This document shows, piece by piece, positions 1 through 11,507 of a DNA stretch of 64,000 nt. Under the pieces are notes generated by a model. The model made no database searches and was not told the DNA's origin. It saw nothing but the letters and a program-made list of their open reading frames with translations. The position numbers and the translations under genes are program-made. The stretch is from Microbacterium maritypicum. GTDB lineage: Bacteria > Actinomycetota > Actinomycetes > Actinomycetales > Microbacteriaceae. Within the stretch, counting starts at the first letter, position 1, and each line of letters begins with the position of its first letter. The stretch is from assembly GCF_041529975.1 (NCBI RefSeq), contig NZ_CP168030.1, positions 1,612,001-1,676,000 on the forward strand, written 5' to 3'.

Positions 1-78
1 CCCAGCTGGGAGAGCTTCTATGAAGGCGCGATCGGCGCACTGATACTCATCGGAATCGGCGCAGCCGCAGCGACGTGA
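1..78 (+). CDS. Daptide-type precursor peptide, 5'-truncated
   Basis: An open frame enters from the left edge and stops with TGA at 76-78, giving 25 visible residues that begin PSWESFYEGA and end AAAAT. The visible part is a short acidic/aromatic stretch followed by a Gly/Ala/Ile-rich hydrophobic segment with a C-terminal Thr, the same layout as the two complete small peptides downstream. In the daptide family of RiPPs the C-terminal Thr is oxidatively decarboxylated, transaminated and dimethylated. The leader and start codon are outside the window. The function is inferred from the C-terminal pattern and the neighbouring methyltransferase, protease and exporter genes. Confidence 0.75.
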   Translation, partial: PSWESFYEGAIGALILIGIGAAAAT

Positions 79-120
79 TCTCGTCGACCCGATGAGGGTG
101 ACGAAACGAAAGGAGGAAAT

Positions 121-246
121 ATGCAGGCCACGATGCCGAAGCTCGAGTTCACCGAACTCGAGGCCATGGAAGCGCTGAACGACGGCGAGGACTTCCTGCG
201 GGGATTCGCCGCGGGCGTCATCATCGGGATTCTCGCGCTGACGTAG
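121..246 (+). CDS. Daptide-type precursor peptide (41 aa)
   Basis: This 41-residue peptide has an excellent ribosome binding site (AAAGGAGG ending four bases before the ATG). The N-terminal half is an acidic leader containing LEFTELEAMEAL. The C-terminal half is a hydrophobic core beginning near DFLRGF and ending IIGILALT. The LEFxELE leader motif recurs in the next peptide, which suggests a shared recognition site for a RiPP recognition element. The final residue is Thr, as daptide maturation requires. It lies 42 bp after the preceding precursor and 35 bp before the next. The exact leader/core boundary cannot be read from sequence. Confidence 0.85.
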   Translation: MQATMPKLEFTELEAMEALNDGEDFLRGFAAGVIIGILALT

Positions 247-281
247 TAGTCGTATCCGACTACCGATTGAGGAGGTACCAA

Positions 282-401
282 ATGCTGACGAGATCGCTGG
301 AATTCCAGGAACTCGAACAGATCGACGCACCACTCGAATGGTGGGAGCACGCGGGCTACATCATCGCCATCATCGGCGGTGCGGCAGCGATCGCAACCTG
401 A
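282..401 (+). CDS. Daptide-type precursor peptide (39 aa)
   Basis: This 39-residue peptide starts at ATG 282 behind a GAGGAGGT ribosome binding site. The leader carries LEFQELEQIDAPLEWW, which shares the LEFxELE motif with the upstream peptide. The core is hydrophobic (GYIIAIIGGAAAIAT) and ends in Thr. A longer frame starting at 338 in another phase overlaps it, but the ribosome binding site and similarity to the sister peptide favour this small gene. The three precursors have different cores, so the cluster probably makes three related products. A hairpin follows at 409-435. Confidence 0.85.
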   Translation: MLTRSLEFQELEQIDAPLEWWEHAGYIIAIIGGAAAIAT

Positions 402-408
402 CCGAGGG

Positions 409-435
409 GTGCGGGCGGACCACACCCGCCCGCAC
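409..435 (+). terminator. Hairpin between precursor genes and modification genes
   Basis: A perfect 10-bp stem (GTGCGGGCGG at 409-418 with its complement at 426-435) and a 7-base loop lie just after the last precursor stop codon. No T-run follows. A leaky terminator or processing hairpin here would give more precursor mRNA than downstream enzyme mRNA, a common arrangement in RiPP operons. The regulatory role is inference. Confidence 0.5.
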
Positions 436-463
436 TCCACTGCTCACGCTGAGAGGCCATCGA

Positions 464-1291
464 ATGCCAGGACTGATCACCGAAGCCATGCAGGCGCGAC
501 TCGACCTGGTCGGGGCGCGTCCCCGGGAACAAGACCTGTACGAAGGGGAGGGCACCGACTTCTATGAGCGACTCGTCGGCCCCGACCGTGCCGAGATTCG
601 AGAGATGCTGGCACTCGCGAGAGATGCCGCGGGGCCTGTACTCGATCTCGCCGCGGGAAGCGGGAGAGTGACGATCCCGCTGGTGAGATCCGGCAAGCGA
701 GTCACCGCCATCGACCTTTCGGACGACATGCTCGCCCACCTGCGACGCGCCTTGCCGGAGCGGTCGGCCGTCGAGTGCATCGTCGCGGACATGCGTCACT
801 TCTCGCTGGAGGCCCGGTACGAGCTCGTCATCATCGGCGCGACGTCCATCACCTTGCTCGATCACGAAGGAAGGTCGCTTCTCTACGCGAACGTGCGGCG
901 TCACCTCGCCCCCGGCGGCGTCTTCGCCTTCACCGTCGCCACAGGTGCGTCTGCGCAGAGTCTCGCCGTGCCGACAGAGCGTGAGATCAGAGTCCCTGGT
1001 AGAGGCCAAGACGACATCTATCTCTTCTCCCAGCAGGTGGAAGCGGACGGCGCGGCGCGGGTGGTCAATTGGGTCCGTGCCTCAGACGTGACCCCTGGCG
1101 GCGAAGTCACCATCCTCACCAGCCGATTGCAGCTGCTCAGCCACGAGGTTCTCGCGAGAGAACTCGTCGAAGCCGGCTTCCACGAACCTGCCGTATCTCC
1201 TGTTCGAACGCACCTCGGAGCGGAGATCCTCCTTCTCAAGACGTCGTGGGCGGGGGCCTGGGGAATGGCGGATGGCGATGTTTCCGACTAG
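464..1291 (+). CDS. Class I SAM-dependent methyltransferase, daptide MpaM-like
   Basis: This 275-residue protein has a Rossmann-fold methyltransferase core. Motif I is VLDLAAGSGRVT (about residues 59-70), the ribose-binding acidic residue is in VTAIDLSDDML (about 80-90), and the post-I region IVADMRHF follows. The N-terminal DLYEGEGTDFYERL segment is typical of small-molecule methyltransferases. In daptide biosynthesis the M enzyme N,N-dimethylates the amine made from the C-terminal Thr, and its position directly after three Thr-ending precursors supports that role. ATG 464 was chosen over an upstream frame-compatible start at 338 because the latter overlaps the third precursor. Its 3' end overlaps the protease gene by 20 bp. 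Confidence 0.8.
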   Translation: MPGLITEAMQARLDLVGARPREQDLYEGEGTDFYERLVGPDRAEIREMLALARDAAGPVLDLAAGSGRVTIPLVRSGKRVTAIDLSDDMLAHLRRALPERSAVECIVADMRHFSLEARYELVIIGATSITLLDHEGRSLLYANVRRHLAPGGVFAFTVATGASAQSLAVPTEREIRVPGRGQDDIYLFSQQVEADGAARVVNWVRASDVTPGGEVTILTSRLQLLSHEVLARELVEAGFHEPAVSPVRTHLGAEILLLKTSWAGAWGMADGDVSD

Positions 1292-2951
1292 TTCCCTTCG
1301 GAGGAGAAAGAGCTCCGCACCAGCACCGCTCACTGCAGACACGTGTCCGCTTCTGTCGACCGGAGTCACGTTCGTGGGAGTCGGCGATGAATCGACGGGG
1401 ATAGCAGTGCTGCACGGCGTGCCTTCATCCAGGGTTTCGCGGCCGGTCGTCGACCTGCTGTCGGCGATGGACGGCACGACCTCGCTTCACGATCTGCATC
1501 TGCGCTTCGCCGCATCCGAGTCCTCCGAGAGCTTCCTCCAGCTGGTCCAGCGTTTCCGCGCCACGGGGCTGCTCGAGGGCGACACCAAGCTGCCGCCCGG
1601 TCGGCTGACCTATCGGCCCCCGTTCACGCTGCAGATCGCAACCCTTCGTGCGGCCGCCATCTTCGGTCGACTGCACCGTCTGATCGCGCCCCTCCCACGC
1701 CGGGCGATCCTGGTATCCGTTGCGGCCGTGCTCAGCCTGGGGTTCATGGCGGCCATCCTTCAGGCGAGAGAGCTGCTGAACGTCGTCACCACGCCCATGC
1801 CTTTGGGGGCGATCGTGGTTCTCGTCGCCGTCCTCGCGTGCCTCACCCTGCTCCATGAGAGCGCCCACGGCCTCACACTCACGCGCTACGGCGGCAGGTC
1901 CCGGCGCGCCGGCGTCATGCTCTTCTATCTCGCTCCCGCCTTTTTCGTCGATGTGACGGATGGCTGGCGCCTGCCTCGCCGTCGGCAGCGCGTGGAAGTC
2001 GCTCTTGCCGGACCCGCCGTGCACGCCGTGGTCGCGGCGATCGCACTCACGGCGGCGCTGGTGGCTCCGCAACCGGTCGTCCGCGAGACCCTGCAGATCC
2101 TTGGTCTCTCCTGCACAGCCATCGTCCTCGTCAATCTGATCCCGTTCGTGCGGTTCGACGGGTACATCGCGCTCATGAGTGCGCTGGACGAGCCGAACCT
2201 CAGGAATCGGACGATTCGCGACGGAGCGAACTTCCTGACAGGCCTCCTCTTCGGCGGACGGCGCATGAGCAAGAGCGTGAACACGTGGTGGAGCGTGCCG
2301 TTCGGCCTCGCGAGCCTCATCGCACCGATCACGCTGGTGCTGCTCGCCGTCACACGCGCGGTCCGATCTCTGGCCGCGGGCGGACCAAGTCTCGGGATGT
2401 TCGTGGTGGCGCTGGAAGCCGTCGTCGTGCTCGTCGGGATGGGGCTTTTATGGAGGGCCCTGCACCGGGTGCTCCGGTCAGGTGTGTCGCGACTGCGCTT
2501 CATCTCGGTCTGCGCCGCGCTGGGTGCGATCATCGTGATCGCCGGAGCCGTGATCCCCGTACCGATGACCGCCACCTTCGGCTTCTCCACAGAAGGCGGT
2601 CGGGTGGTCCTTGTCCACGCCGACGGGCAAACGGCAGTGGAGGTGCGCGACGGGACCCCTATCGTGCTCTTGAGCAGCGGCATCCTGGGCAGCCGGCAGG
2701 TCGGTGAAGGAACCGCGAGACCGCAGCGACCCGAGCCCACGAGGGTGCCGCTCGATGCTCTGGTTCCCGCCACAGCGGCGGGCGTGTCGGTCTCGGCCGT
2801 GTCCTTCGCAGAAGTGGATGTATCCGACAGAGGCGGGAGCCCTCCCGAGGCCGGGCAGGCGAGGTTCGATCTCGGAATGGTGAGTCTGTGGGAGTTCCTC
2901 TGGGCCACCGGCGTGATGCAGCCACTTTCGGCATCCCAGAACGAGAAGTAG
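1272..2951 (+). CDS. M50-family intramembrane metalloprotease, daptide MpaP-like
   Basis: This 559-residue multi-pass membrane protein has zinc motif HESAH at residues 195-199 inside a hydrophobic stretch. The second site-2-protease motif, NLIPFVRFDGY, places the third zinc ligand at about Asp296. Residues 30-105 resemble a PqqD-like/winged-helix peptide-binding region (VSRPVVDLLSAMDGTTSL). After more membrane segments, a soluble C-terminal region of about 120 residues follows. The likely role is removal of the leader from the precursor peptides in the membrane, because none of the transport genes carries a peptidase domain. It is probably translationally coupled to the methyltransferase by the 20-bp overlap, and the ABC ATPase starts 13 bp downstream. 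Confidence 0.8.
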   Translation: MAMFPTSSLRRRKSSAPAPLTADTCPLLSTGVTFVGVGDESTGIAVLHGVPSSRVSRPVVDLLSAMDGTTSLHDLHLRFAASESSESFLQLVQRFRATGLLEGDTKLPPGRLTYRPPFTLQIATLRAAAIFGRLHRLIAPLPRRAILVSVAAVLSLGFMAAILQARELLNVVTTPMPLGAIVVLVAVLACLTLLHESAHGLTLTRYGGRSRRAGVMLFYLAPAFFVDVTDGWRLPRRRQRVEVALAGPAVHAVVAAIALTAALVAPQPVVRETLQILGLSCTAIVLVNLIPFVRFDGYIALMSALDEPNLRNRTIRDGANFLTGLLFGGRRMSKSVNTWWSVPFGLASLIAPITLVLLAVTRAVRSLAAGGPSLGMFVVALEAVVVLVGMGLLWRALHRVLRSGVSRLRFISVCAALGAIIVIAGAVIPVPMTATFGFSTEGGRVVLVHADGQTAVEVRDGTPIVLLSSGILGSRQVGEGTARPQRPEPTRVPLDALVPATAAGVSVSAVSFAEVDVSDRGGSPPEAGQARFDLGMVSLWEFLWATGVMQPLSASQNEK

Positions 2952-2964
2952 AAAGAGGATCAAG

Positions 2965-3681
2965 ATGAACGACCATGCGATCGAAGTCCGAGGACTCACC
3001 AAACGATATGGCAACCGAACCGCCGTCGAGGAGCTGTCGTTCGCTGTGCCGCGGGGGTCCATCGTCGGTCTGCTCGGGCCCAACGGCGCGGGCAAGTCGA
3101 CGACTCTGCGCAGCATCGTGGGTCTGCTCGCGCCGACCAGCGGCGACAGCCTCATCGACGGTGCCCCGTTCACCGCCCTCGACAACCCCGCATCGCACGT
3201 CGGCGTGCACATGGACGGCTTCGGCTTCGAACTCGGGATCACCGCGAGACGGCATCTGGAGATATCCCGACTCGCGGCCGGCGCATCTTCCGGCCGCGTC
3301 GACGAGGTCCTGGAGATGGTCGGACTCGCTCCAGACGCCCGTCGCCGTGTGAAGACCTACTCGACCGGGATGGCCCAGCGACTCGGGCTCGCTGCTGCGC
3401 TCATCGGTTCTCCGCGCACTCTCATCCTCGACGAGCCGGCGAACGGGTTGGACCCCAACGGCATTCGATGGCTCCGCCGGTTCCTCCGCGGCTTCGCGGA
3501 AAGCGGCGGCACCGTCTTGATCGCCAGTCATCAACTGGCCGAACTGGAACAGGTCGTGGATGAGGTCGTCGTCATCAAGCGGCGCGCGCTCTACGCCGGG
3601 CGGCTCGGCGACCTCGTAACGAGCGACCGCGATTCTCTCGAGAGCAAGTACTTCGACCTGGTCGAAGGAGCACCCGCATGA
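2965..3681 (+). CDS. ABC transporter ATP-binding protein (peptide export)
   Basis: This 238-residue nucleotide-binding subunit has Walker A GPNGAGKS (about 38-45), signature STGMAQRLGLA (about 133-143) and Walker B LILDEP (about 153-158) followed by ANGLDP. It resembles the BcrA/DrrA/NatA group, which pairs with separate membrane subunits for peptide or antibiotic export or self-protection. An AAGAGG ribosome binding site precedes the ATG. It overlaps the permease gene by 4 bp (ATGA). In this operon it should energise export of the mature peptides or confer immunity; the two roles cannot be separated from sequence. Confidence 0.85.
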   Translation: MNDHAIEVRGLTKRYGNRTAVEELSFAVPRGSIVGLLGPNGAGKSTTLRSIVGLLAPTSGDSLIDGAPFTALDNPASHVGVHMDGFGFELGITARRHLEISRLAAGASSGRVDEVLEMVGLAPDARRRVKTYSTGMAQRLGLAAALIGSPRTLILDEPANGLDPNGIRWLRRFLRGFAESGGTVLIASHQLAELEQVVDEVVVIKRRALYAGRLGDLVTSDRDSLESKYFDLVEGAPA

Positions 3682-4406
3682 GACGAGCCATTCGGAGCGA
3701 GGTGCTGCGCGCGGTGAGCGGCCTCTCCATTCTGCCCGTCTACTTCATCGCGCTCCTCATGCCCCTGTTCGTTCTCTTCTCCGACGGCTCCCGCTTCGAT
3801 GTCGCCGGCGTCGAGGCTGGCGCTGCCACGACCCGGCTCCTGGAGCCGCTTGCCTGGTCCGCCATCGCCGCGGCGTTCGCCGGGGCATACGGTGTCACCC
3901 GCGAGTACTACTACGGCTCGATGGACAGAACGCTGACCGGCGTCGGATTTCGTCGCGCATTCACGGGAAAGCTCGTCGCCGGTGCCTTTGTCGCGAGCGC
4001 ACTGTCAGTGTGCATCTTCGTGCTGTGGACGGTGGGGGTGCACTTCCTTCTCGCTCAGAACGGACTTTCGCTCGTGCTCACCCAGGATGCCTGGCAGATA
4101 TATGCGGGAGCTCTGCTCGGCTCCGTGCTCGGTTCCCTCGTCGGAGGTGCCATCGGCTGGATAACACGGAACTACTACGTGACGGCGGCTCTCGTTCTCG
4201 CCATCCCGATGGCGGTGGAGTTCGCGCTGCTGCGGAACGCACCTGAGCTGGCGCGGTTCTCGCCCGGGTTGGCCCTCGCCGCGCTGAGCGTTCCCGGGTA
4301 CCAGGACCAGCTGCTCGAGTTCATCCCTGCACTCGCTGTCGCGCTCGCTTGGGCTGTCGGCCTGGTCGCGCTCGCGTGGTACCGGAGACGAAGGGCCGTT
4401 TCGTGA
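3678..4406 (+). CDS. ABC-2 type permease subunit 1
   Basis: This 242-residue hydrophobic protein has about six predicted membrane spans, including segments around residues 18-33, 54-70, 100-125 and 210-235. The loop EYYYGSMDRTLTGVGFRRAFTGK is typical of ABC-2/bacitracin-type permeases. The start overlaps the ATPase stop by 4 bp and the end overlaps the next permease by 4 bp (GTGA), so the three are almost certainly co-translated. It is one half of the transmembrane channel of the presumed peptide exporter. Confidence 0.75.
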   Translation: MRRAIRSEVLRAVSGLSILPVYFIALLMPLFVLFSDGSRFDVAGVEAGAATTRLLEPLAWSAIAAAFAGAYGVTREYYYGSMDRTLTGVGFRRAFTGKLVAGAFVASALSVCIFVLWTVGVHFLLAQNGLSLVLTQDAWQIYAGALLGSVLGSLVGGAIGWITRNYYVTAALVLAIPMAVEFALLRNAPELARFSPGLALAALSVPGYQDQLLEFIPALAVALAWAVGLVALAWYRRRRAVS

Positions 4407-5137
4407 TTCTGCGGGCTCTGTGCGCTCAGAGCCGGAGCTTCACGGCCGACATCGTCCTCCTCTGGAGCGCGGTGGCGGCATTTGCGATGTCGCTCTCCCT
4501 GGCGACGAGCGTCCCACCGGAGTTCGCGACTGCGCCTGCTGATGTTCGTGAGGCGCTCATCGCGCCCTTCGGGGCCGTGCTTGCGACGTATGGCGCAGTT
4601 GTCGCGGCTGTTTATGGTTCCTTCCGGTACACCGTCGACCGCCGAGATGGTGTCATCGCGCAGCGTCTGATGCTCCAGCCTCGGTGGGTGATCTTCCTCA
4701 CCCGAATGCCCACTTCTGCGCTCGGCGGTGCGGTCGTCGCTCTCGCTGGCGTGGTGGGGGGTCACGTTGCGCTGATGATCGCCATGGGCGGCATTCCTGT
4801 GCAGTGGTCATCGGTCGGCCCCGTCGTTGCGCTCGGCGCTGTCGCGGGCCTCTGGGGAATGGGGCTCGGGATCGTCATCCAGACCCATCTGGTGGCTTTG
4901 TTCGCCGCATCCATGTCGATGGCGGCGGCGATGCTGGTGGCGCCCTTCTGGAGTGCGGGCGCCGTCTACCTTCCGCTTCTCGCAATGCTCGAAGCCCTTC
5001 AGTTCGACATCACCGCCCTGGGAGTGGAACCGAAGGACAGCCTCGACACATGGCTGGCCGTGCTGGTGGTAGCAGGGTGGGTGGTGGCGGCACTCGGGGT
5101 TGGCGCAGTCGCGTTTCTGAAGCGCGACGTGAAGTAG
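4403..5137 (+). CDS. ABC-2 type permease subunit 2
   Basis: This 244-residue hydrophobic protein has about six membrane spans. It shares with subunit 1 the general layout and a cytoplasmic loop (SFRYTVDRRDGVIAQRLMLQP, split here around a Tyr/Asp-rich turn). GTG 4403 was chosen because it overlaps the preceding stop by 4 bp; an earlier in-frame start would overlap the preceding gene by more than 50 bp. It forms the second transmembrane half of the exporter and is the last gene of the peptide operon: a gap of 63 bp and an unrelated tRNA-modification gene follow. Confidence 0.75.
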   Translation: MILRALCAQSRSFTADIVLLWSAVAAFAMSLSLATSVPPEFATAPADVREALIAPFGAVLATYGAVVAAVYGSFRYTVDRRDGVIAQRLMLQPRWVIFLTRMPTSALGGAVVALAGVVGGHVALMIAMGGIPVQWSSVGPVVALGAVAGLWGMGLGIVIQTHLVALFAASMSMAAAMLVAPFWSAGAVYLPLLAMLEALQFDITALGVEPKDSLDTWLAVLVVAGWVVAALGVGAVAFLKRDVK

Positions 5138-5200: not shown

Positions 5201-6091
5201 GTGGCAACCCCCAAGATCGTCCTCTTCTACGCGTTCACGCCCCTCGCCGACCCCGACGCCGTGCGCGTCTGGCAGCGCGACATCGGCGAGGCGCTCGGGC
5301 TGCGCGGACGACTGCTCATCTCGAAGGACGGGATCAACGGCACTCTCGGTGGTGACATCACGGTCCTGAAGAAATGGCTCCGTTCCTTCCGCTCCTACGC
5401 GCCGTTCGCGGACGCCGACATCAAGTGGAGCGAGGGGACGGGGCTCGATGCCGAAGGCCGCAGCCTCGACTTCCCGAAGCTCAGCGTCAAGGTGCGTGAC
5501 GAGATCGTGTCGTTCGGAGCCCCGGGAGAGCTGCGTGTCGACGAGCACGGCGTCGTCGGTGGAGGCACCCGCCTGACCCCGGAAGAACTGCACGCGCTGA
5601 TGGACGAACGCGGCGACGACGTGGTGTTCTTCGATGGCCGCAACGCCCTCGAGGCGCAGATCGGACGGTTCCGCGGCGCGGTCGTGCCCGACACCGAGAC
5701 GACCCGGGATTTCGTGCAGCTCCTCGACTCCGGCGCCTACGACGACCTGAAGGGCAAGCCGGTCGTGACCTACTGCACCGGCGGGATCCGCTGCGAGGTG
5801 CTATCGAGTCTCATGACGGCTCGCGGCTTCGGCGAGGTCTACCAGCTCGAGGGCGGCATCGTCCGCTACGGCGAGAAGTACGGCGACGACGGCCTCTGGG
5901 ACGGCTCGCTGTACGTGTTCGACGGCCGTGGCTCCGTCGACTTCTCCGACCACGCGCGGGTCATCGGCGAGTGCGTCGGCTGCGGGACGCCCACCAAGCG
6001 CACCGCCAACTGCCCCGACCTCTCCTGCCGCTCGCAGTTCGTGGTGTGCGAGGCGTGCGTCGCCGTGTCCTGCGCCGTTCACGCCGCCTGA
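5201..6091 (+). CDS. trhO: tRNA uridine(34) hydroxylase, rhodanese family
   Basis: This 296-residue protein has an N-terminal acylphosphatase-like domain ([20 protein letters not shown]) and a central rhodanese domain. The catalytic-loop Cys192 lies in [12 protein letters not shown]-terminal Cys-rich tail contains CVGCG and CEAC pairs that could bind zinc. This is the TrhO/YceA layout; the family uses prephenate-independent oxygen chemistry to make 5-hydroxyuridine at the tRNA wobble position. It starts with GTG and is a single gene between the peptide operon and a convergent transglutaminase gene. Confidence 0.9.
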
Positions 6092-8413: not shown

Positions 8414-9590
8414 CGCCGACTCCGATCCGCGCCGAGACGGCATCCTCCCACGCCTCGGCGATGTCCGCTCCGAGCTCCACGACCGTCCAGCCGTGCGGGA
8501 CGGAGGCCTCGGCGGCACCGGGCAGCAGCTCGGTGCTGAACAGCATGGGGGCGGTGGCTCCCGCCGGACGCAGCAGGGCGGCGTCCTCCTCATCGAGGCG
8601 CCCGGTGATGAAGACCAGCGGGCCGGGAGGCGTTCCTCCGATGAGCGACGCCAGGTCCCGACTCTCGCCGCGGGGTGTCACCATCGCCAGCGCCACGAGC
8701 AGTCCGTCACGGTCGTCTTCGTGCCCGCGCAGGGCGCCGAGCAGAGTTCCCGCGCCGTCGATCACGTCGACGCTGTAGCCCTCGGACGCGAGATGGATGG
8801 CGGAGGAGGCGCACAGGGACACAGCGGCTTCGAAGGCCGGATCGGCGTGGACGCCCGGCGCATCCCAGTGGCGGCTGCTGCGGTCGAGCACGACGACCGC
8901 GTCAGGGCTCGACTCCTCCTCTTCCTGTCGCACCATGAGCTGCCCGCGGTGTGCGGTCGCCCTCCAGTGGATGCGACGCATCGAGTCGCCGGGGATGTAG
9001 CCGCGCGGTGACAGGTTGTCGCTGCCCTGCCCCAGCCTCGTCGACGAGGTGTGCGCGGTTCCTCCGGCGGCTCCGACCCGCACGGCGAGCGGGGCGAGGG
9101 CGAAGACCTCGGGCACGACGGTGACGCTGCGGCTGTCGCCGAACGGCTGCTCGCGCTGCGCCAGCCCGAACGGATCCACCGTGCGCAGCATGAGCGGCCC
9201 GAGCGGCCAGACGCCGCGTCGGACGCCGGTGATCAGGTAGGTGAGCTGACCGGTCTCGGGCGGGTACTCGCCGCCCGAGTCGCCGGTGACGGCGTCGGGC
9301 AGCACGTCGTGCCAGAGCCCCCGTGGCACGCGGAGGGCGCGCAACGTGAAGCGCACCGTGACCCTCGAGGTCTCCGACACGGTCAGCAGGTCGGTCGAGA
9401 TCTGACGGGTGACCGTCCCGGAGCGGCGGGGGAGACGCACGGCGAGGAGCGAGAAGAGGGTGAGGGCGGCGAGCAGCACCCCGATGTAGAGCAGGATGCG
9501 GGCGCCGAGGACGTTGGCGGCGATCATGCAGCCCAGCGCGGCGATGAGCGCACCGGCGCCGCGGCTGGTGAGGGATCGGCGTCGTCGCAT
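8400..9590 (-). CDS. DUF58 domain membrane protein
   Basis: This 396-residue protein has two N-terminal hydrophobic segments (residues about 10-45), an extracytoplasmic beta-rich region, and a C-terminal von Willebrand A-like DUF58 domain. The DUF58 signature is seen as SMRRIHWRATAHRGQLMVRQEEEE, split around the conserved HWRATA. It begins at ATG 9590, 11 bp after the moxR stop. MoxR ATPases and DUF58 proteins are thought to act together as a chaperone-like pair, here with the transglutaminase. The exact process in this organism is unknown. Confidence 0.85.
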   Translation of the reverse strand: MRRRRSLTSRGAGALIAALGCMIAANVLGARILLYIGVLLAALTLFSLLAVRLPRRSGTVTRQISTDLLTVSETSRVTVRFTLRALRVPRGLWHDVLPDAVTGDSGGEYPPETGQLTYLITGVRRGVWPLGPLMLRTVDPFGLAQREQPFGDSRSVTVVPEVFALAPLAVRVGAAGGTAHTSSTRLGQGSDNLSPRGYIPGDSMRRIHWRATAHRGQLMVRQEEEESSPDAVVVLDRSSRHWDAPGVHADPAFEAAVSLCASSAIHLASEGYSVDVIDGAGTLLGALRGHEDDRDGLLVALAMVTPRGESRDLASLIGGTPPGPLVFITGRLDEEDAALLRPAGATAPMLFSTELLPGAAEASVPHGWTVVELGADIAEAWEDAVSARIGVGDVPR

Positions 9591-9601
9591 GAGGGTCTCG
9601 G

Positions 9602-10591
9602 TCAGGAACGGGTCGCGACGGGAACGCGCACCCGTTCGACGATCTGGGCGAGCGCCGCCTCGACGGGCTGGGCGCCCGCACGGTGGGCGCCGCGAGCGGG
9701 CAGCAGCCGGTGCGCCAGCACGGGGATCAGCAGCGCCGTGATGTCGTCGGGAATGACGTAGTCGCGCCCGTCGAGGGCGGCCCACACCTTCGCCGCCCTG
9801 ATCAGCTGCAGGGTGGCCCGGGGGCTCGCGCCGAGGTGGAGGTTCGGGTCGGAACGGGTCGACTGCGCGAGGGCGACCGTGTACTCCTCCAGCGCGGGGG
9901 CCACGTGGACGGAGCGCGCCCACGCGATGAGCTGGGAGATGGATGCCGCATCGGCGACGGGCGTCACCGCGGCGAGCGGGCTCACCACATCGCGCTGACG
10001 GAGCATGAGGGTTTCGGCTGCGGCATCCGGGTATCCCATCGAGATGCGCATCATGAAGCGGTCGCGCTGCGCTTCGGGCAGGGCATAGGTGCCCTCCATC
10101 TCGAGCGGATTCTGGGTCGCCACGACCAGGAACGGCTTCGGCAGCATGTGCGTGGCTCCGTCGACCGTGACCTGTCCCTCCTCCATCGCCTCGAGCAGCG
10201 CAGACTGCGTCTTCGGGGAGGAGCGGTTGATCTCGTCGGCGATCACGATGTGGGCGAACACCGCGCCGCGCTTGAACTCGAACTCCCGATCGACCGGGTT
10301 GTAGACCGAGACGCCGGTGACATCGCCGGGAAGCAGGTCGGGGGTGAACTGGATGCGGCGCACCGTCGCGTCCACGCTCGCGGCCAGCGCCCGGGCGAGC
10401 ATCGTCTTGCCGACGCCGGGCACATCTTCGATGAGCAGGTGCCCCTCGGCGAGGAGGCAGACGAGCGCGCTGCGCACGGCATCGGGCTTGCCGTCGATGA
10501 CCTGGCCGATGGAGCCGAGGATCGCGGAGGTCTGCGCGGCGAACCGCTCGGCGTCGATCGTCACCGGGACCAGGGGGGCGTTCTCGGGCAT
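9602..10591 (-). CDS. MoxR-family AAA+ ATPase
   Basis: This 329-residue AAA+ ATPase has Walker A GVGKT at residues 59-63, Walker B VIADEINR, and the sensor-1 region ATQNPLEMEGTYALPEAQRDRF that is characteristic of MoxR proteins. It is the first gene of the minus-strand operon moxR-DUF58-transglutaminase. It probably remodels or activates a partner through the DUF58 protein. The promoter should lie in the 10592-10735 interval shared with the divergent SRP RNA gene. Confidence 0.9.
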   Translation of the reverse strand: MPENAPLVPVTIDAERFAAQTSAILGSIGQVIDGKPDAVRSALVCLLAEGHLLIEDVPGVGKTMLARALAASVDATVRRIQFTPDLLPGDVTGVSVYNPVDREFEFKRGAVFAHIVIADEINRSSPKTQSALLEAMEEGQVTVDGATHMLPKPFLVVATQNPLEMEGTYALPEAQRDRFMMRISMGYPDAAAETLMLRQRDVVSPLAAVTPVADAASISQLIAWARSVHVAPALEEYTVALAQSTRSDPNLHLGASPRATLQLIRAAKVWAALDGRDYVIPDDITALLIPVLAHRLLPARGAHRAGAQPVEAALAQIVERVRVPVATRS

Positions 10592-10735
10592 GCGTTCCCT
10601 CTCACATCGGCGCTGCGGTGCGCGTTACTCGATCGTAACCCTGTGGAGGGGGTAACGCTCTGGCAGGTTCCCCTGAGCTCTCCGCCATCCGCGGTGACGG
10701 TTCGAACCACCCGGCGCATCGGGTTAGGATGGTTG

Positions 10736-10830
10736 ACGGCTCTCCGCGTGGCGGCATCCAGGCCAATTCCCCCAGGGCGGAAACGCAGCAAGGGTAACCG
10801 GGCTCTGCTGGGTGCGCGGAGGGTCACTTT
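10736..10830 (+). ncRNA. ffs: Small SRP RNA (4.5S RNA)
   Basis: The region contains the apical element of bacterial signal recognition particle RNA: a GGAA tetraloop in GGGCGGAAACGCAGCAAGGG (10775-10794), the segment bound by Ffh. An outer helix pairs CTCCGCG (10741-10747) with CGCGGAG (10815-10821). A TAGGAT -10 box lies at 10724-10729, and a T-rich tract (CTTTCTTTTTCT) follows at 10827-10838. The boundaries are approximate. dnaX-recR, which often sits near ffs in actinobacteria, is 8 kb downstream. Confidence 0.9.
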
Positions 10831-10895
10831 CTTTTTCTGCGGGTGATCCGCCGGATGCTCAGTCGTCTCCTGGCTGCACCTGCGACAATCATCCG

Positions 10896-11507
10896 GTGAC
10901 CGTCTCCCCACCACCGAAGGTGCAGCATCCGCTCGGCCGTTTCGCCTCGCCGGTGCTCCTGCTCGTCGCGATGTGGGTCGTGCAGTTCGCCGATGCGATC
11001 CTGCCGGGGTCTTTCACCGGCTTCGGGTTGCGGTCCTGGGATGTGTCCGGTCTCGGTGGCATCGTGCTCGGTCCGCTCCTGCACGCGAACTGGCAGCATC
11101 TCATCGGCAACTCGGTGCCGTTCCTCGTCCTCGGCTGCCTCGTCGCGGTCGAAGGAACCCGCCGATTCTGGGCCGTCACGGCGATCGTCGCGGTCGTCAG
11201 CGGCATCGGCACGTGGCTCTTCAATGCTCCCGGCACGCTGACGGTCGGCGCCTCCGGACTCGTGTTCGGATACTTCGGCTACGTCGTGATGCGGGTGTTC
11301 GCGCCGGGCCGGGTCGCCCACCGGATCCTCTACGCCGTCATCGCGTTGATCGTGCTCGCCCTGTACGGTGCCACGATGCTGGCCGGGGTGTTCGGCGTCG
11401 CCGAGGGGATCTCCTGGCAGGGTCACCTCTTCGGCGCGATCGGTGGCGGACTCGCCGCCCTCATCGGCCGTCGCCCGCGAACAGAGCGCGGAGCGCTCGC
11501 GGCATGA
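10896..11507 (+). CDS. Rhomboid-family intramembrane serine protease
   Basis: This 203-residue six-span membrane protein has the rhomboid catalytic dyad: Ser120 in GASGLVFG and His177 in WQGHLFGAIGG. The loop-1 element HANWQHLIGN supplies the conserved His and the oxyanion-hole Asn72. GTG 10896 was chosen because it places the first span at the usual distance; the longer in-frame start at 10812 would lie inside the SRP RNA. It overlaps the next gene by 4 bp. Substrates are unknown. Confidence 0.85.
   Translation: MTVSPPPKVQHPLGRFASPVLLLVAMWVVQFADAILPGSFTGFGLRSWDVSGLGGIVLGPLLHANWQHLIGNSVPFLVLGCLVAVEGTRRFWAVTAIVAVVSGIGTWLFNAPGTLTVGASGLVFGYFGYVVMRVFAPGRVAHRILYAVIALIVLALYGATMLAGVFGVAEGISWQGHLFGAIGGGLAALIGRRPRTERGALAA

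Follow-up and report, generated by a model that had tools for sequence, protein, structure and literature searches.

The question raised by this locus is why a daptide operon of Microbacterium should carry two adjacent genes for the recognition protein DapB, where the additional gene came from, and whether its protein is put to use. The window (the whole 64,000-nucleotide stretch of DNA analysed, G000:C1:1612001-1676000, G000 being the window genome) opens inside this operon, and the sequence to its left was read in locus L003 (G000:C1:1600001-1617500), whose positions minus 12000 give window positions. What was found is very probably a complete daptide operon with a foreign second DapB. It extends over L003:7386-17137, starting 4615 bases left of the window and ending at window position 5137, with all genes on the + strand in the order B1-B2-D-C-A1-A2-A3-M-P-T1-T2-T3, an order common to relatives among the compared daptide loci of the genus.

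In a profile search, the three precursors as well as B1, B2, C, D, M and P scored above the cut-offs of curated NCBI daptide models. Left of the window, dapB1 (L003:7386-8450; NF041823, 200.7 bits, cut-off 150) and dapB2 (L003:8447-9499; NF041823, 261.6 bits, cut-off 150) are followed by the aminotransferase gene dapD (L003:9496-10755; NF041821, 557.9 bits, cut-off 450) and the dehydrogenase gene dapC (L003:10752-11879; NF041822, 329.1 bits, cut-off 300). The original prediction had placed B, C and D just left of position 1 and had named the lack of an upstream decarboxylase or aminotransferase gene as the result that would speak against a daptide cluster; reading the sequence there uncovered the RRE-protein gene (in two copies), the dehydrogenase and the aminotransferase, all above cut-off, and because the NF041821 and NF041822 genes lie left of the window that objection falls. 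Among named records, the closest to B2 is that of Microbacterium sp. MYb45 (97%). A sigma-70 promoter scan of L003:7000-12600 found 0 sites against 0.5 expected.

The precursor genes straddle the window edge. dapA1 (44 aa; L003:11944-12078; NF041805, MpaA1 family, 92.3 bits, cut-off 40) is cut by it, so that window 1..78 holds its last 25 codons and stop, the start lying 57 bases left of position 1; dapA2 (41 aa; 121..246; NF041806, MpaA2 family, 92.4 bits, cut-off 40) and dapA3 (39 aa; 282..401; NF041807, MpaA3 family, 86 bits, cut-off 40) are complete, the latter with an ATG start preceded by GGAGG (the frame is open from a TTG at 267 as well). Each of the three cores ends in Thr (AAAAT, LALT and AIAT), and the A2 and A3 leaders share LEFxELE, as had been noticed from the window. 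The ELExMEAP-like leader, aliphatic core and C-terminal Thr of daptide precursors were recognized in each, except that the A2 leader ends in Leu where Pro is usual. A pattern search, which can miss some precursors, gathered three per locus in 54 of the 69 daptide loci, two in 7 loci, one in 5 and none in 3; since the matches to curated models have E = 9e-27, 1e-26 and 1e-24, and three Thr-ending precursors recur in those 54 loci, the trio is not a product of chance.

Downstream lie the SAM methyltransferase gene dapM (464..1291; NF041820, 265 bits, cut-off 175), dapP for an intramembrane M50-type metalloprotease with an HESAH motif (1272..2951; NF041824, 380.6 bits, cut-off 300; PF02163), and dapT1 for an ABC transporter ATPase (2965..3681; PF00005; no NCBIfam model above its cut-off among the 25 matches listed). 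dapT2 (3678..4406) and dapT3 (4403..5137) encode membrane proteins that are likely ABC permeases by position; neither reached a family cut-off in two family searches, and dapT3 gave a weak ABC2_membrane_2 match (E 0.48) in one of them only. The predicted run of methyltransferase, M50 metalloprotease and three-gene ABC exporter is thus present at 464-5137, with two permeases assigned by position. Together with DapB and DapC (NF041823 twice, NF041822), DapD and DapM (NF041821, NF041820), all above cut-off, and DapP with its transporter, this bears out the assignment to the daptide class.

Daptide chemistry was taken from the available text of PMC10036551 and PMC12338566. From family membership we infer Thr-to-Dmp chemistry for this operon: the RRE of DapB would bind the precursor leader and present the C-terminal Thr to DapC, which would convert it to a ketone by oxidative decarboxylation, after which DapD would transaminate, DapM dimethylate to the Dmp terminus, DapP remove the leader and T1-T3 export the product. 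Aligned to YqhD, DapC has other residues at the places that we take to be the YqhD metal ligands, which suggests metal-ligand loss in the DapC of this operon. TfDapC is likewise reported without its metal ligands in the available text of PMC12338566.

The class was described from the mpa cluster of Microbacterium paraoxydans DSM 15019, with products at m/z 2363, 2232 and 2339 (available text of PMC10036551). Comparison with mpa was made through four mpa-type loci (L046, L047, L048 and L052), which share the gene order seen here and were identified by predicted masses, their cores giving Dmp [M+H]+ of 2363.31, 2232.28 and 2339.29 that match the published values. The gene classes are the same (A1-A3, B, C, D, M, P and transport) and each precursor falls in the matching MpaA family. 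The original suggestion that the cores are new family members is correct to the extent that they are new sequences, differing from the L046 cores at 4/24, 6/22 and 1/22 positions, within families already curated as MpaA1, MpaA2 and MpaA3. Predicted Dmp [M+H]+ are 2364.30 (A1), 2245.27 (A2, if cut after Leu) and 2309.28 (A3). The known class gains three predictable daptides from this cluster. Two differences from mpa stand out: the A2 leader ends in Leu, whereas mpa leaders are cut at Pro, and two DapBs are encoded here but one in mpa, as in each of the four mpa-type loci. The DapBCDMP core is also shared with tfDap and saDap, both of which carry YcaO, tfDap having in addition a dehydratase and a monooxygenase (available text of PMC12338566); no match to YcaO, dehydratase or monooxygenase was found among the genes of this operon, though T2 and T3 matched nothing at all above cut-off. 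The cluster itself is ordinary, of a published class that is common in the genus, and its variation is the second DapB from another lineage. No mention of a second DapB was found in the available main text of PMC10036551, PMC12338566 and PMC12670281, whose supplementary files may list one.

The distribution of the pair was examined in three genome samples. The DapB model matched 68 of the 366 genomes that represent the genus, in 65 cases above the cut-off, 9 of 398 in a sample of the family (2 of them in the genus) and 19 of 394 in a sample of the class (3 of them in the genus). One locus was taken from every DapB-matching genome of the genus except G000, and two from G103, making 68 further loci and, with L003, 69. 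Tandem DapB pairs occur in 18 of the 69, each between a tRNA-Ser and trhO, and the family and class samples showed two full DapBs in none of their genomes from other genera; G756 and G1034 have two partial matches each, which together make one DapB. Several loci showed other departures. G103 holds two daptide clusters that differ in type and lie on separate contigs (L054 and L105). A divergent daptide type has methyltransferase and aminotransferase in one open frame (L106:10772-13075, 767 aa; L107:7492-9786, 764 aa; L108:10506-12350, with the aminotransferase part split over two frames), and in L106 the DapB match is itself divided, with N part and RRE part in separate frames (8918-9571 and 10161-11108), naturally or through error. 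In the tandem cluster L104 (G225), B2 and the protease are each broken into two frames, through decay or poor assembly; neither the dN/dS values nor the overlap count include this locus, and one tree was built without its short B2 piece.

One conceivable origin for adjacent genes of one family is simple tandem duplication in place. B1 and B2 are, however, only 32% identical, and their trees separate them. B2 is the native DapB. The B1s group instead with the DapBs of five single-precursor clusters (L089, L091, L095, L096 and L111), here labelled DFW after the core start DFWTWY, with support of 100/100 in two trees, one built from 56 of 85 DapB rows and the other from 36 of those plus 14 from other genera, the rows being chosen by the authors (L106 and L109 yielded no DapB row long enough). 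Forcing B1 together with native DapBs and apart from the DFW DapBs cost 59 log units (p-AU 1e-5), the native group so constrained including three native-side DapBs of another genus, and forcing B1 with B2 alone cost 540. In-place duplication is thus rejected by the constraint tests, under the model used and with groups that were named after earlier trees had been seen, and is scarcely credible. DapD tells another story of descent, the DapDs of tandem loci lying among the native type and those of DFW clusters forming a separate clade (96 SH-aLRT, quick tree). Judged from these trees, the operon is a chimera, since its B1 groups with DFW DapBs and the DapD of tandem loci with the native type.

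The two DapB lineages are, transfer aside, probably older than the genus, because in another genus of the same family (g46) three of five DapB rows fall beside native DapBs (96/97); the remaining 2 lie elsewhere. Neither monophyly of the DFW DapBs (p-AU 0.53) nor that of the B1s (p-AU 0.39) is rejected, and for this reason no direction of transfer is claimed. DFW clusters differ from this operon in having one precursor each, against three here, and a separate DapD clade; two of their precursor variants, when scored, exceeded the cut-off of the general model NF041808 but none of those of MpaA1-A3. Their only DapB is of the B1 lineage, and their chromosomal site is the same.

That site is bounded in the window genome by a tRNA-Ser (GGA) on the opposite strand to the operon (L003:7118-7205), left of dapB1, and on the right, outside the operon, by a + strand gene at 5201..6091 that is conserved beside clusters and which we take to be trhO-like. 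In 18 of 18 tandem loci the same tRNA-Ser precedes B1 at a distance of 167-200 bases and a trhO-like gene borders the right side; the analysis found the tRNA, trhO or both in 5 of 5 DFW loci and 28 of 46 other loci. In G263, which has no DapB match, tRNA and trhO lie about 170 bases apart, an empty site; around the trhO loci of cluster-less genomes, the tRNA was within the flank examined in 6 of 14. Genome G246 (L081) carries an orphan dapB at the site (9458-10492 in operon orientation) with the rest of the cluster missing, and its alignment to L057 jumps from the dapB end to the cluster end. Aligned to the DFW cluster of G122, the window genome is 78-100% identical per 150 columns over the left flank and roughly the initial third of B1, 63-79% over the remainder of B1 and 51% or less after it.

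B1 might be no more than a relic that cluster exchange left at this tRNA-Ser/trhO site, retained for its promoter and for translational coupling to B2 and not for its protein. The cargo of the site does change, between DFW clusters, native clusters, the empty site and the orphan dapB, and the TGATG following the DFW dapB in L089, L091 and L111 (three of the five looked at) resembles many B1-B2 junctions. All 17 intact pairs have overlapping B1 and B2 genes, with junctions TGATG or ATGA (counted from the junction sequences; in L064, L066 and L068 the B2 start that was chosen is downstream of this codon). Yet the B1 frame is open in all 18 tandem loci, and the constraint on B1 is about equal to that on B2. 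By NG86, with pairs that are not independent and many of which have dS near 1, dN/dS in L003/L068 was 0.23 (N part) and 0.26 (RRE) for B1, 0.27 and 0.39 for B2 and 0.12 for DapD; in L044/L051 the values were 0.23 and 0.27, 0.24 and 0.32, and 0.13. Median dN relative to DapD was 2.09 and 2.29 for B1 and 2.01 and 2.06 for B2. This constraint on B1 weakens the relic explanation, which is possible but doubtful.

Two other uses for B1 were weighed. As a member of the DapB lineage of DFW clusters, it could serve a DFW-type precursor encoded elsewhere in the genome. The L095 DFW precursor, searched against 366 genomes, had close matches (E below 1e-17) only in G109, G122, G236, G269 and G286, none of them tandem; the tandem genomes G101, G102, G193 and G211 gave weak matches (38-42% identity) near their own clusters, and with the same query G000 gave no match at E 0.001. 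Such service in trans is very improbable. B1 could also be specialized for A2: the A2 leader ends in Leu in all 18 tandem loci, and in a residue other than Pro in 14 of 29 single-DapB loci (12 Leu, 2 Gln). Those 12 single-DapB loci have A2 Leu but no B1, and once relatedness is counted only 1 independent pair remains on supported branches, which leaves the association without statistical power; specialization for A2 is unlikely.

Use of the B1 protein with the operon's own DapB and DapC is better placed. In G000, B1 aligns to positions 3-323 of the 331 of NF041823, which takes in both the N-terminal DapB domain and the C-terminal RRE, and in the five genomes with DFW clusters (G109, G122, G236, G269 and G286) a B1-lineage protein is the only DapB found, which suggests that this lineage can support DapC in oxidative decarboxylation. 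In L073, L074, L078 and L082, B1 stops short of the RRE part (its match to the profile ends at 214-220 of 323) with the 1-nt overlap with B2 kept; short DapB rows come otherwise from the broken copy in L104 and from L106-L108, which are of the divergent type and at other places. L074, L078 and L082 form one clade, and because the B1 of L073 ends differently and falls elsewhere in the trees, two losses of the RRE from B1 are likely. Removal of the RRE inactivated MpaB, according to the available text of PMC10036551. The RRE-less pair L074/L082 still has a B1 dN/dS of 0.29, against 0.22 for the B2 N part. On the other side, the branches of the RRE-less B1s are long and dN/dS goes up to 0.55 in pairs that include them, though it goes up to 0.53 for the B2 N part too. 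A search for solved relatives of B2 gave two weak hits, both to designed proteins and attributed to chance (E 0.4 and 0.62).

For a protein that stands beside a native DapB, has a gene overlapping that of its neighbour and can dispense with its RRE, a second adaptor or a partner on DapC is the simplest explanation. It is quite possible, if short of probable, that B1 has been retained in such a working role, as a second adaptor or as a partner of B2 and DapC, and that in the four relatives it has become an RRE-free partner. In a narrower and more speculative form of this proposal, to which we give rather low credence, the captured foreign B1 would be a partner subunit and B1 and B2 would form a mixed adaptor on DapC; B2 would read the leader, so that B1 could shed its RRE. 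B1 is in any case not generally needed, because the same precursor type also occurs in clusters with a single DapB, and one DapB is enough for mpa.

These loci show an exchange of daptide cargo at one chromosomal site, in which a recognition gene of another lineage was kept before a complete operon. Tandem DapBs are natural pairs with and without an RRE, and may serve as a probe of the unexplained N-terminal part of DapB apart from leader binding. If the mixed-adaptor proposal is true, the tandem clusters would show a recognition protein passing from a single-chain to a two-subunit adaptor.
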